From the NCBI GenBank assembly GCA_000218705.1, contig GL947594.1, positions 833,848-897,847 of the forward strand: a stretch of DNA of 64,000 nucleotides, written 5' to 3'. Each line of letters begins with the position of its first letter. Positions within the stretch are counted from its first letter, which is position 1. A model generated the notes under the pieces. It ran no database searches, was not told the origin of the DNA, and was given only the letters and a program-made list of their open reading frames with translations. The translations under genes and the position numbers were made by a program. The stretch comes from Prochlorococcus marinus bv. HNLC1. GTDB lineage: Bacteria > Cyanobacteriota > Cyanobacteriia > PCC-6307 > Cyanobiaceae. Shown here in pieces: positions 2,154-57,676 of the stretch.

Positions 2154-2594
2154 TATTAGTGATGACAGAAGGAGATCTAGTTGATAATCAGATTAAGAGT
2201 TCTTTTAAAAATTAGTTTTGATAGTAAAAGTGATTATTCACTTCTTCAAATTTTACTAAGACTTTATTTTTAAAGAAGTTCAAAATTTATCGCGGAAGTT
2301 TAATTTCTTAATACTTGAATCTCTTTCCTAAAAGGTTAGAGAAGTTAATTTGCCATGGTATTGAAGACCATCGATTAGTGAAGATCTAGTTGGTCAACCT
2401 TGGTCGAGTTGATCACTGTAACTGTCGTTTTATTAAATTAGTCAGTTTAAAAACTTTTGCATTATTCCTTTACATCGCATAAGGATTAAGAAATTTATTT
2501 ACTTTTCTACCAATTCTTATTGCCCTTTTAATCATAAAAAGATTAATTAGTTATTAATACTGCAGTCTATTAATAGTTGAACGATTAGATTAAT
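2154..2594. other. Gene-free spacer with local hairpins
   Basis: No reading frame of convincing length on either strand. Two local hairpins occur close together: ATGGT/ACCAT near 2354-2370, and GGTCAAC/GTTGATC near 2391-2413 around a nine-base loop. The ten-base string GATCTAGTTG occurs twice (about 2174 and 2383). This could be the leader of the Yfr1-like RNA or a separate structured transcript, but there is no terminator before 2634 to define one. Confidence 0.3.
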
Positions 2595-2668
2595 ATCATC
2601 AGAAAACTCCTCACACACTAATTTCTGATTATTAAACGCCCCGATTCATAAGAATTAGGGTGTTTTTT
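2595..2668 (+). ncRNA. yfr1: Yfr1-like small RNA
   Basis: The eleven-base core ACTCCTCACAC at 2606-2616 is identical to the ultraconserved single-stranded core I know from the cyanobacterial regulatory RNA Yfr1. It is presented in a loop: ATCAGAAA (2598-2605) can pair perfectly with TTTCTGAT (2622-2629). An alternative upstream hairpin (TATTAAT 2568-2574 with ATTAATA 2589-2595) would leave the core unpaired. The RNA ends in a strong terminator, AAACGCCC and GATTC pairing with GAATT and GGGTGTTT, followed by a T-run (2634-2668). The 5' end is estimated. Against a plain Yfr1 call: the usual guaB-trxA neighbourhood is absent here. Confidence 0.65.
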
Positions 2669-2752
2669 AATCACTTAAATTCTTTTCAATGTTACTCATA
2701 TGTGCCAATTTAATAACCTGACTCCTCATATTGCTTCAAAAAATAATTCCTG

Positions 2753-2758
2753 TAATAT
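2753..2758 (+). promoter_or_regulatory. -10 box of Yfr2-like copy A
   Basis: TAATAT sits 6-7 nt before the presumed RNA start at 2764/2765. The same hexamer at the same spacing precedes copy B (9129-9134), and the 24 bases from this box into the RNA differ at only two positions between the copies. No clear -35 element is seen. Confidence 0.6.
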
Positions 2759-2763
2759 CAAAA

Positions 2764-2859
2764 AGTGTGTAGGAGAGGTTTTATTGAAACAGTGGAAACA
2801 AGGAAACACTTGATTCAGTAGAACCAGAGAAAGACCTCTAGAGATAGGGGTCTTTTTTT
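2764..2859 (+). ncRNA. Yfr2-family small RNA, copy A
   Basis: An RNA of about 96 nt. It opens with an unpaired GTGTGTAGGAG segment (2765-2775). A 12-bp stem follows, 2777-2788 with 2814-2825 (two G-U pairs), closing a loop that carries two tandem GGAAACA repeats (2794-2800 and 2802-2808). It ends in a terminator, AAAGACCTCT pairing with AGGGGTCTTT plus T-run (2830-2859). The tandem GGAAACA loop and overall plan match the Yfr2-type (Cyano-1 motif) RNAs of picocyanobacteria as I know them. It lies about 95 nt downstream of, and co-directional with, the Yfr1-like RNA, and its 5' segment is almost complementary to the Yfr1 core. Confidence 0.8.
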
Positions 2860-4061: not shown

Positions 4062-4916
4062 ATGATTGACCTAAAAAGAAATGGCAAAAAGGAACCTATT
4101 AGAGCAACTGGTTTAAGATCAAGAGTCTCCTCCTGTTATTCTCCTAATCAAAAAGAAGATTTTAAAATTAGTAGAGGAAAATTTTCTAACTTTTTAACTT
4201 GTAAGAGATGTTTTTACTTGGATCGAGTGAAAGGTTTAGATCCTCCGGGTACTCCTGGATGGACTTTAAATGAAACAACAGATTTATTATTAAAAAAGGA
4301 ATTCGATTATTGCCGAGAGAGACAAATTCCTCATCGATTATTTATAGAAAATCAATTAAGTAATGTAGTACCTTTTGATCATCCAGAAATTGATAATTGG
4401 AGGGATTCTCTTCATAAAGGACTGATGCTTCGTCATAAGGATACAAATATTATTTTAACTGGAGGTGTAGATGATATTTGGCAGCACAATATTTCAAAGC
4501 AATTAATTATTGTCGATTATAAATCACAGGCAAAACTTGGAAGAGTAGACAAACAAGATTATCTTGAAGATCCTTATCATGAGGCATATAAAATCCAAAT
4601 GGATTTTTATGCTTACCTTCTTTCGGGGATGGGGTTTGATGTTCATCAAACATCTTATTTTTTAGTTTGTAATGCAAAGAGAGATGATCAAGAATTTAAA
4701 AAAAGAATGAATTTTGACGAATATTTAGTACCCTATAATTGGAATATTGATTGGATTGATAATAAAATTGATGAAATGGTTAACTTAATGAATGGTAGTC
4801 AAGTCCCAGAGCAGAATCTATCATGCAAAAACTGTGCTTATTCAGAACAATATGCCAAAGTTATCAGTAATGAATTTAAAGAAGATAAAGTAGAAATTCA
4901 AGGCAGTCTTTTTTAG
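4062..4916 (+). CDS. PD-(D/E)XK family nuclease with two CxxC pairs
   Basis: A 284-residue RecB/Cas4-type nuclease domain. Core motifs are GGVDDIW (D137/D138), LIIVDYKSQ (D152 and K154, the D-x-K catalytic pair) and YKIQMDFYAYLL (Q179xxxY183, motif V of this superfamily). Cys pairs flank the core: C47xxC50 (TCKRC) and C255xxC258 (SCKNC), an arrangement like the four-cysteine Fe-S or zinc site of Cas4 and AddB nucleases. Family knowledge: Mg-dependent DNA cleavage in repair or processing. No helicase or cas gene is adjacent, so the role is open. Convergent with the hydrolase gene ending at 4939. Confidence 0.8.
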   Translation: MIDLKRNGKKEPIRATGLRSRVSSCYSPNQKEDFKISRGKFSNFLTCKRCFYLDRVKGLDPPGTPGWTLNETTDLLLKKEFDYCRERQIPHRLFIENQLSNVVPFDHPEIDNWRDSLHKGLMLRHKDTNIILTGGVDDIWQHNISKQLIIVDYKSQAKLGRVDKQDYLEDPYHEAYKIQMDFYAYLLSGMGFDVHQTSYFLVCNAKRDDQEFKKRMNFDEYLVPYNWNIDWIDNKIDEMVNLMNGSQVPEQNLSCKNCAYSEQYAKVISNEFKEDKVEIQGSLF

Positions 4917-4938
4917 GGAAATTAATTACTTAAAAATT

Positions 4939-5637
4939 TTATTTCCAATTTATTTCATCCCACCATGCTCTAACTTTTGAAGTGCAGCCATACCAATTCT
5001 TACCAAAAATACCTCCATGTACTGTATTAGGTAAAGTAATTTGTTGCGAATTTTTTAAAAGTGATGAGGATAATGGAACTAAACCATCTCCACATTCATT
5101 TTTATCTCCAGATATTGATTTATATGAATTTCTCGCTACAAGTTTAGTTAAAAGAGAAGTTTGATTTGAATTGATTTCTACTTTACCTCCAATAGAAACA
5201 TAATTAATATTTTTAAAAAAATTGCCTGGATATTTTTCATCTACAAACCTTCTCAACTTAGTTGCTCTAACAGCTTGATGTGGACTTCCTAAAGTAATTA
5301 AATTTCTGGTAGTAGATTTTCCGTTATATATTACATCCTTAAATGGTTCACTTGAAAGATACAGTCTCAATATAATCCCTCCTGAACTATGTCCGATTAG
5401 ATCAACTGTTTTTGCTTTAGTTTCATTCAATGAGAAAGCAACCATTTTTTTGACTTTATTCAAAATAGTTATCCATCCTTCTGCTGAATTGCTTTTTAAC
5501 CAATCTCCTCTTGTTACATCTACCACATATACTTTCCTGCCAGAAATATTTTCAATAGCATTTTTAGCAGGATTATAAGAGTCTGAAGTGATTAGAAAAC
5601 CACCGAGTATAATTATTGGATTTTTAATCTTTTGCAC
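4939..5637 (-). CDS. Alpha/beta hydrolase, lipase-like
   Basis: A 232-residue alpha/beta hydrolase. The N-terminal strand NPIIILGGFLITSDSY is followed by the nucleophile elbow GHSSGG (S84), then TLGSPH near 116-120. The acid is probably D184 in CGDGLVPL and the base H207 in NTVHGG, giving a complete triad in order. The 'ITLGSPH...GDG-VP' pattern is typical of lipase class 2/PGAP1-like esterases that act on lipids or lipid-linked substrates. No clear signal peptide. It is convergent with the nuclease gene; the stops are 22 nt apart. Substrate cannot be told from sequence. Confidence 0.8.
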   Translation of the reverse strand: MQKIKNPIIILGGFLITSDSYNPAKNAIENISGRKVYVVDVTRGDWLKSNSAEGWITILNKVKKMVAFSLNETKAKTVDLIGHSSGGIILRLYLSSEPFKDVIYNGKSTTRNLITLGSPHQAVRATKLRRFVDEKYPGNFFKNINYVSIGGKVEINSNQTSLLTKLVARNSYKSISGDKNECGDGLVPLSSSLLKNSQQITLPNTVHGGIFGKNWYGCTSKVRAWWDEINWK

Positions 5638-9062: not shown

Positions 9063-9084
9063 TAACTGTCACATGTGACAGTTA
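9063..9084. promoter_or_regulatory. Perfect 22-bp palindrome upstream of Yfr2-like copy B
   Basis: The half site TAACTGTCACA is followed at once by its exact reverse complement, with no spacer. The centre (9073.5) lies about 67 bp before the estimated start of the RNA at 9140/9141, where activators of the CRP family bind at class I promoters. The arms contain TGTCACA/TGTGACA. In a region of about 75-80% A+T, a perfect 22-mer palindrome with this much G+C is unlikely by chance, so a dimeric regulator site is the best reading. Confidence 0.6.
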
Positions 9085-9134: not shown

Positions 9135-9139
9135 TAAAA

Positions 9140-9228
9140 GGTGTGTAGGAGAAGATGATTTTTCAGTGGAAACATGGATACACTTGATTACTCATCTTAA
9201 AAAAGACCCAATAAGGGTCTTTTTTTTT
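9140..9228 (+). ncRNA. Yfr2-family small RNA, copy B
   Basis: An RNA of about 89 nt. The 5' end repeats copy A (GTGTGTAGGAG, 9141-9151). AAGATGA (9152-9158) pairs with TCATCTT (9192-9198), enclosing a loop with GGAAACA (9168-9174) and a variant GGATACA (9176-9182), then CACTTGATT as in copy A. A perfect terminator follows: AAAAAAGACCC, a short loop, then GGGTCTTTTTTTT (9199-9228). The stem sequence differs from copy A while the loop and 5' segment are kept, which indicates conserved structure. It is convergent with the gene ending at 9248. Confidence 0.8.
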
Positions 9229-56749: not shown

Positions 56750-57676
56750 TTAATTGATAATGTCTAGCAATTTCTCAATTACTTCTTCTGAAATATTTTT
56801 ATTGGATAATTTTTCAATTTCTCTTAGGCCCGTTGGACTTGTGACATTAATTTCACTAAGCATTCCATTAATAACATCTATACCTACAAAAAATAGTCCT
56901 TCTTCTTGCAGGTGTTGAGATAATTCAAGACAAATACTTTTTTCTGCACTACTTAGGGAGGTTTTTTCAGCTTTTCCTCCCATCGCAAGGTTACTTCTAA
57001 AGTCTCCCTGATTTGGGATTCGATTTATTGCTCCTAATGGTTTTCCATCTACAATGATTATTCTTTTATCTCCATTTTGTACCTCGGGAATAAATTTTTG
57101 CATCATAACTGGTAATTGTTCTTGTGAAGTAATTAGTTCAATGATTGCTCTAGAACCAGGAGAATTTTTATCCAATCTAATTACTCCCTGACCTCCTTTA
57201 CCTCCTAGAGGTTTAATAACAACTTCTTCGTTAGCTTGTGCAAAATTAATTAAATCATTTACTTTGCTAGCGACAATGGTTGGAGCCATCAGATTGCTAT
57301 ATCTTAATGCTCCTAACTTTTCATTCCATGCCCTTAGAGATGATGGTTTATTGACGACTTTGACACCCTTTCTCTCCGCTACTTCAAGTAGATGTGTCGC
57401 GTATAGATAACCTTCATCAACAGGAGGATCTTTTCTCATCCAAATACAGCTAAATTGTGCAAGTGGAATGCATTTATTTTCTTTTAATTGAATCCATGGA
57501 ATAGGTTCAATATTTGTACAGGATGCCCAAACCTCATCTCCTCTCGCTTCAAGATCTTGTGGAGTACAAAACCAAACTTCAACTTTTTTATTGTGTGTTG
57601 CCTGCATTAATGCCGCAGATGAATCTTTTGCTGGGTTTATATTCTTTATTGGATCAATTACAAAAAGAAATTTCAT
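56750..57676 (-). CDS. gshB: Glutathione synthetase
   Basis: A 308-residue ATP-grasp enzyme that joins glycine to gamma-glutamylcysteine. The N-terminus is [25 protein letters not shown], the substrate region is [24 protein letters not shown], and the ATP-grasp part has [48 protein letters not shown] and [24 protein letters not shown]. All expected motifs are intact. It follows grxC by 5 nt; the two form a glutathione unit. Confidence 0.95.

Follow-up and report, generated by a model that had tools for sequence, protein, structure and literature searches.

The 64,000-nt stretch of the Prochlorococcus marinus bv. HNLC1 genome analysed here (the window, which starts at genome position 833848) carries a tandem of two small RNA genes, Yfr10 followed by Yfr2, and further downstream a solitary second Yfr2 copy. 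We hold, with a probability of roughly 0.93, that the window has such a tandem, that Yfr2 relieves Yfr10 and Yfr1 from their targets in this genome and that the two tandem genes are separate units; in the same reading, the pair seems to duplicate unit-wise, and a GntR-type palindrome stands ahead of the solitary copy at 9139. The window feature is genuine, typical of its genus and already in the literature. Adjacency of Yfr10 and Yfr2, their pairing around a single bulging C and a 270-nt "precursor of Yfr10 and Yfr2" (Table 1 of that study) were described for strain MED4 in 2008 (PMC2518516). For the same strain, a 2019 study (PMC6778093) reports that Yfr2 pulls down Yfr1 and Yfr10, that it lifts Yfr1 repression in E. 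coli, and that small amounts of it fully inhibit the binding of Yfr1/Yfr10 to the ppa mRNA. As tandem, bulged pairing and precursor, and later binding and blocking, were thus in print, the window finding is a correct rediscovery. It concerns a known, little-tested case of mutual sRNA regulation in an organism that ranks among the most abundant of the ocean.

The mechanism would work as follows. With its core ACUCCUCACACAC exposed in a hairpin loop, Yfr10 is expected to target mRNAs in the manner of Yfr1. The next gene downstream encodes Yfr2, whose 5' end would present the near-complement GUGUGUAGGAG and bind both Yfr10 and Yfr1. This binding would relieve Yfr10 and Yfr1 from their targets, and the pairing would in turn shield Yfr2 from RNase E. 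All three effects have been described in MED4 (PMC6778093, where pairing with Yfr1/Yfr10 is reported to protect Yfr2 from RNase E); for the window genome, we infer them from the conservation of sequence and structure. Yfr10 and Yfr2 apparently form separate units, and occasional read-through would yield one RNA closing on itself.

An earlier note on this DNA had described the tandem as a Yfr1-like RNA followed by a Yfr2-like RNA and had suggested a covariance-model search over the window. This search (cmscan, Rfam 15) confirmed two Yfr2/Cyano-1 members and returned Yfr10 in place of Yfr1. The upstream RNA matches Yfr10 (RF02362) at 2598-2678 with 68.7 bits over model positions 1-78 of 78 (gathering score 43), and the downstream RNA matches Cyano-1/Yfr2 (RF01701) at 2763-2830 with 65.3 bits (gathering score 41). 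Yfr1 (RF01116) has no match in the window at the gathering score, and its sole match in the genome lies at 57600-57652, about 0.78 Mb away. The RF02362 match and the distant sole RF01116 match rule out a Yfr1 identity for the upstream RNA, while its Yfr1-like core stands. Both structured RNA genes lie on the same strand, as claimed, here the forward one, with a spacing of about 95 nt. The tandem is a Yfr10-Yfr2 pair of a Prochlorococcus, probably of the high-light type.

Each RNA, folded alone, is far more stable than its shuffles (z = -6.48 for the Yfr10 gene, 2598-2668 (+); z = -6.32 for the Yfr2 gene, 2763-2858 (+)). In the predicted folds, Yfr10 begins with a stem-loop at 2598-2629 (8-bp stem, 16-nt loop), whose loop holds the core ACTCCTCACACAC (2606-2618), followed by a terminator-like hairpin with a T run at 2634-2668. 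Yfr2 begins with a free 5' end that holds the segment GTGTGTAGGAG (2765-2775), continues with a stem-loop containing GTGGAAACAAGGAAACAC (2777-2825, supported by both cmscan and folding) and ends with a terminator hairpin, AAGACCTCT..AGGGGTCTTTTTTT (2828-2858), similar to that of the phage RNAs discussed below. Reading the sequence directly bears out the 11 base pairs described between ACTCCTCACACAC and GTGTGTAGGAG, with C2612 bulged between the duplex halves CTCCT/AGGAG and ACACAC/GTGTGT (all features on the forward strand). A third Yfr1-like motif in the tandem spacer (CTCCTCATAT, 2722-2731) was considered and dropped, as a sister copy of the tandem that is 88% identical has CTCCTAATAT. Small ORFs with similar starts are found near two tandems, at 768-926 in the window (MKLTTPFNALRN..) and at L237:2876-3106(-) (with MKLKTPFTILNR.. 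inside), and may possibly represent a small protein family.

The window genome contains five Yfr10 and five Cyano-1 copies, arranged as four tandems, one solo Yfr10 and one solo Yfr2. The tandems are located in the window and at 261.7, 1096.7 and 1097.5 kb, the last two being about 0.85 kb apart. These two neighbours (genome 1096537-1097615, L237) are 78% identical to each other, the 1097 copy being closer to that of the window (88%), which argues against a simple recent local duplication. The Yfr10-Yfr2 pair seems to duplicate as a unit. Synteny in other Prochlorococcus genomes, which had been proposed as a check, was assessed in 38 genomes, namely the window genome (90.7% complete) and 37 of the 151 of the genus, given as at least 95% complete. 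Cyano-1 follows on the same strand in 57 of 60 Yfr10 matches (55 of the 60 above the gathering score), at a start-to-start distance of 140-171 nt, so the tandem order is kept. There are 65 Cyano-1 matches in these genomes, and solo copies are few (3 of 60 for Yfr10, 8 of 65 for Cyano-1); Yfr10 is without a match in one of the 38 genomes and Cyano-1 in two. In the wider set, many of whose genomes are incomplete, Yfr10 is present in 123 of 151 genomes, Cyano-1 in 131 and Yfr1 in 118, and as two incomplete genomes contain six Yfr10, the five of the window genome are no record. An exact tandem pattern matched at least 117 times in named genome contigs, and each of the contigs listed carries Prochlorococcus or Synechococcaceae in its title. 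Two kinds of tandem can be told apart by their spacing and by the bases following AGGAG.

Could the complementarity be a chance match? We regard this as extremely improbable. Within their own folds, both the Yfr10 core and the Yfr2 segment have a mean unpaired probability of 1.00, and co-folding the two RNAs gains -13.0 kcal/mol, a value equalled by one of 300 random window segments. The earlier note had named absence of the complementary segments in related strains as an objection; pairing ability is in fact kept, as the loop-segment duplex reaches -13 kcal/mol or better in 99 of 112 tandem pairs of the genus and in none of 112 controls (random 16-mers out of the upstream flanks). The motif CTCCTCACACA is kept in 82 of the 112 Yfr10 loops, and some class-B loops have drifted away from the core. 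In addition, the GTGTGT segment recurs in phage RNAs that were found by patterns ignoring it.

Conserved pairing does not imply that each Yfr2 is adjusted to its neighbour. In a first set of tandems (n = 57), own partners pair slightly better than shuffled ones (p = 0.016), but this advantage fades at n = 112 (p = 0.07), a set whose second half was chosen (57 of at least 110 additional Yfr10 loci whose spacing was wide or for which no partner was given) and from which L299 (no Yfr2 found downstream) and L191 (segment unrecognised by the script) had been left out before counting. The test gives p = 0.85 for class A, p = 0.13 for the 86 class-B pairs and p = 0.16 for distinct class-B pairs, and among the 86 the mean is -16.2 for Yfr2 with the canonical loop against -15.2 with its own partner. 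Co-adaptation of linked partners is therefore unsupported: with 99 of 112 pairs at -13 kcal/mol or better and yet p = 0.07, pairing is conserved with no convincing tuning of Yfr2 to its neighbour. This would be expected of a Yfr2 that acts on all Yfr1 and Yfr10 in common. Loops and segments are associated in one respect, GTGAAG segments accompanying CTCTTC loops by 12 to 1 and CTCCTC loops by 15 to 36 (Fisher p = 5e-5), which probably reflects shared ancestry. Isolated cases of possible compensation, with an altered loop matched by an altered segment, occur in L220 (genome G060) and L221 (G055) (CTCTTCACAC/GTGTGAAGAG; AACAC/GTGTT), L220 being a single suggestive compensated pair.

The weak partner effect bears on a different explanation, in which the two RNAs act separately: Yfr10 would act on Shine-Dalgarno-like sites, one of which Yfr2 happens to resemble, the tandem would be a relic of duplication, and the pairing a by-product. 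The AGGAG of Yfr2 does resemble a Shine-Dalgarno sequence, the 112 pairs give no clear advantage to cognate partners, and both RNAs exist as solo copies (3 of 60 and 8 of 65). However, the tandem is kept at 57 of 60 Yfr10 matches, and complete blocking of ppa mRNA binding by small amounts of Yfr2 (PMC6778093) speaks against a by-product. We thus consider separate action unlikely and prefer Yfr2 as an antagonist of Yfr10 and Yfr1. The sponge or anti-sRNA pairing that the earlier note had offered as one possibility is supported by work on MED4, comprising pull-down, a GFP reporter (for Yfr1), primer extension, footprinting and an RNase E assay (PMC6778093).

The second Yfr2/Cyano-1 copy of the window (9139-9226 (+); cmscan match 9139-9202, 58.6 bits, gathering score 41) has no Yfr10 upstream. 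It does keep the same segment, as had been noted, with GTGTGTAGGAG at 9141-9151 (+). About 72 nt upstream of this copy lies the perfect palindrome TGTCACATGTGACA (9067-9080 (+)), the only site in the window to score at least 12 of 14 in a motif scan; the window tandem lacks it. Five of the eight solo Yfr2 copies have the palindrome 71-73 nt upstream, with 13 or 14 of its 14 positions matching. Among the 57 tandem loci, 23 have it with at least 11 matching positions and 13 of these with at least 12 (shuffled loci average 1.15 and 0.10, respectively). In MED4, it is found (13 of 14) at the Yfr2 and Yfr4 loci and is missing at the other two of the four Yfr2 loci. According to PMC6778093, two MED4 Yfr2 homologs are controlled by the GntR regulator PMM1637, which binds Yfr2 promoters bearing the CGRE1 motif. 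The palindrome at two MED4 loci fits these two homologs, and TGTCACATGTGACA is thus a candidate GntR operator, probably CGRE1 itself.

These data also bear on how the two RNAs are transcribed. Folding predicts a hairpin with a T run at the end of each RNA, and a -10-like hexamer can be read 6 nt before each start (TAGATT at 2586-2591 (+) ahead of Yfr10 and TAATAT at 2753-2758 (+) ahead of Yfr2). With a putative terminator and a putative promoter element per RNA, separate transcripts are likely the main mode. Neither hairpin of the window tandem is listed by a consensus terminator scan, and a consensus promoter scan, which includes neither hexamer, returned 3 promoter-like sites against 3.9 in shuffles, with no excess. 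Alternatively, regulation might mainly occur in cis, a read-through precursor closing the 11-bp helix and keeping both RNAs inactive until processing. Folding of the joint transcript (2598-2858) does close 10.93 of the 11 helix pairs in cis, and the MED4 table includes a joint Yfr10-Yfr2 precursor of 270 nt (PMC2518516). Yet a separate 78-nt Yfr10 is given in the same table, the palindrome stands ahead of Yfr2 in 23 of 57 tandems, and the published expression profiles of Yfr10 and Yfr2 differ (PMC6778093). We therefore judge predominant cis action improbable, even a little more so than separate action of the two RNAs. The shared transcript suggested in the earlier note thus has a published counterpart in MED4, and separate transcripts are the likelier main mode.

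A Yfr2-like RNA is also carried by viral contigs. A pattern combining the Yfr2 segment and loop retrieved seven contigs (L157-L163), each a Cyano-1 match at 42.3-42.9 bits (gathering score 41). Two further patterns, designed after these seven and making no use of the 5' segment, raised the number to 39 IMG/VR contigs (L157-L163 and L246-L277, 32 of them new), with for example an RNA at L163:6745-6835(-). These contigs contain 31 distinct RNAs, or 25 when the length of the T tail is ignored. All 39 begin with the segment GCGTGTGT on the 5' side, followed by a stem whose loop reads GTGGAAAC..GG..ACAC (a GGAAAC loop) and then a terminator-like hairpin, GAC..CT..AG..GTC followed by a T run, that resembles the host's, parts of the stem and terminator being fixed by the search patterns. 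The bases following GCGTGTGT are GAGAA (15), AGGAG (9), GGGGT (6), GGGAG (4), GAGAT (3) and GAGAG (2). The Yfr2-like RNA is thus well supported as a sequence feature of these contigs.

In 25 distinct phage RNAs, 97.2% of pair cells are standard, with five two-sided changes and none of 500 shuffles as high; as the sequences are related and the pair at columns 22-55 fails in 12 of the 25, this covariation is to be read as support and not as a probability. The five changes supersede an earlier count of nine, which was obtained from 22 of the 25 RNAs together with two host copies whose stems align badly with them. Rfam scans covered 20 of the 39 contigs; beyond the first seven, they placed 12 of 12 RNAs at the right location with Cyano-1 scores of 26.5-37.1, under the gathering score of 41, and L243 (the same contig as L274) scores 29.8 bits; the phage RNAs have diverged from the family (RF01701). 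None of the 266 genomes searched from the window's genus contains their stem-loop pattern, which speaks against contamination by DNA of these hosts. The GntR-type palindrome is absent near all 39 RNAs (two of them with less than 80 nt of upstream sequence), and the viral contigs contain no host-type tandem. Phage Yfr1/Yfr10 candidates retrieved with a 17-mer (L164-L168) have no Rfam match and were put down to chance.

The duplex of the phage segment with the host Yfr10 loop is predicted at -16.2 to -22.1 kcal/mol, against a mean of -8.8 for shuffled segments, 1.2% of which reach the weakest value. The phage RNA may be a decoy for host Yfr1 and Yfr10. We lean slightly towards the view that marine phages related to cyanophages captured Yfr2 as a stand-alone gene that has a terminator of its own and lacks the GntR-type palindrome, that the RNA binds host Yfr1 and Yfr10 during infection, releasing their targets, and that some of these phages may carry a CTC[A/G]CACACT partner mirroring the host tandem. 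Four of the 39 contigs (L256, L262, L271, and L272) do have a second small element right after the Yfr2 terminator, AATTGAGAGTTTTCTC[A/G]CACACT[A/G]AAAATT followed by a terminator-like hairpin; in L271 it has CTCACACACTAA in common with Yfr10. This element has no RF02362 match up to an E-value of 10 (L256 and L271), and in its predicted fold the CTC is paired in a small stem, leaving the CACAC part free. In L157, L161, and L163, CTCCTCACACAT lies in a predicted hairpin before a 92-aa phage gene, about 242 nt past the phage Yfr2 start, and could be a Yfr2 target, a decoy or a chance occurrence. Four short motifs searched in 280 kb gave five matches outside the RNAs for about 2.6 expected by chance, and the contigs with extra elements are related, so that they provide few independent cases. 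Convergent with the phage Yfr2 in L251 is a gene for a 194-aa protein (4772-5356(-)), presumably a 2OG-Fe(II) oxygenase, and similar DNA follows the RNA in several contigs.

Two of the 39 contigs were annotated, and their gene content is that of phages: terminase, portal, major head, tape measure and J-like tail proteins in a 50.6-kb contig, and major head, tape measure, minor tail and J-like proteins in a 33.5-kb contig. The phrog_848-type protein of the latter matches 384 phage records, and all of these have names that open with Synechococcus, cyanophage, Prochlorococcus, marine or uncultured. Among cultured phages, the best matches to this protein on L163 are the Prochlorococcus phages MED4-117 and MED4-184 (about 71% identity), which also share 41.7% identity with the ParB-like protein of L163, a protein with 92 ParB-like records from many hosts. 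The 50.6-kb contig encodes a distant relative of the phrog_848-type protein (29%, E = 3e-18), and its terminase is less than 60% identical to all 784 matching records, the best 12 of which reach at most 46.6% and are mostly phages of other bacteria; with the MED4-184 terminase it shares a weak 75-aa stretch (27%, E = 6e-4). Given the cyanophage and marine matches of the phrog_848-type protein against the mixed ParB and terminase matches, the host is likely, though not proven, to be a marine picocyanobacterium. Other genes leave the host unfixed: the exonuclease has three distant matches (32-37% identity) in 400 genomes of the family, with no host link, and among the best listed of 827 records from many hosts are cyanophages S-H1 (38%) and KBS-S-2A (35%), and the helicase has 3932 matching records from many hosts.

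The cultured relatives themselves appear to lack the RNA: MED4-184 has no Cyano-1 match up to an E-value of 5, and MED4-117 has no loop match at up to two mismatches. There is likewise no loop match in the single-virus record MH327490 (a 16-kb fragment with a 68% identical phrog_848-type protein), and the MED4-184 terminase was not found in ten RNA-bearing records, in a search run without a positive control. BLAST of two host and two phage RNAs against named phage records returned nothing or short weak matches, so that no cultured phage with the RNA was found at that sensitivity. The open-licence literature, covered mostly at the level of titles and abstracts, contains no report of a phage-encoded Yfr2 that we could find; "Yfr" is absent from a paper on phage non-coding RNAs (PMC9964418), and Yfr2 is present in a reference only in PMC9692554. 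If the phage RNA is confirmed, the Yfr1/Yfr2 network would gain its first phage-encoded member, and viruses would possibly have a new route to disarm host RNA regulation. It would show viruses tapping the network and provide a natural experiment on Yfr2 outside host control. Genetic tools were lacking for Prochlorococcus (PMC6778093), and a phage Yfr2 would make the role of Yfr1 and Yfr10 in infection directly testable through RNA-seq of infected cells or E. coli reporters.

The window tandem is a further member of a known pair and not a new system. The three MED4 tandems, Yfr10-Yfr2, Yfr12-Yfr4, and Yfr18-Yfr5 (PMC2518516), have the same order, strand, spacing and bulged-C pairing as that of the window, and genome G015 of our set is MED4 by coordinates (Yfr10 at 346661-346738). 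Our models identify four tandems plus a solo Yfr10 in the window genome and three tandems in MED4, whose Yfr2 and Yfr4 loci bear the palindrome that the window tandem lacks. Yfr1 (RF01116) and the window Yfr10 have the core ACUCCUCACACAC in common, and presumably their type of target too. However, the Yfr1 core sits between two stem-loops (PMC6778093), while that of the window lies in a hairpin loop, at a locus belonging to RF02362. Finally, the window RNAs at 2763-2830 and 9139-9202 are members of Cyano-1/Yfr2 (RF01701) above the gathering score and do not differ in kind from the rest of the family.
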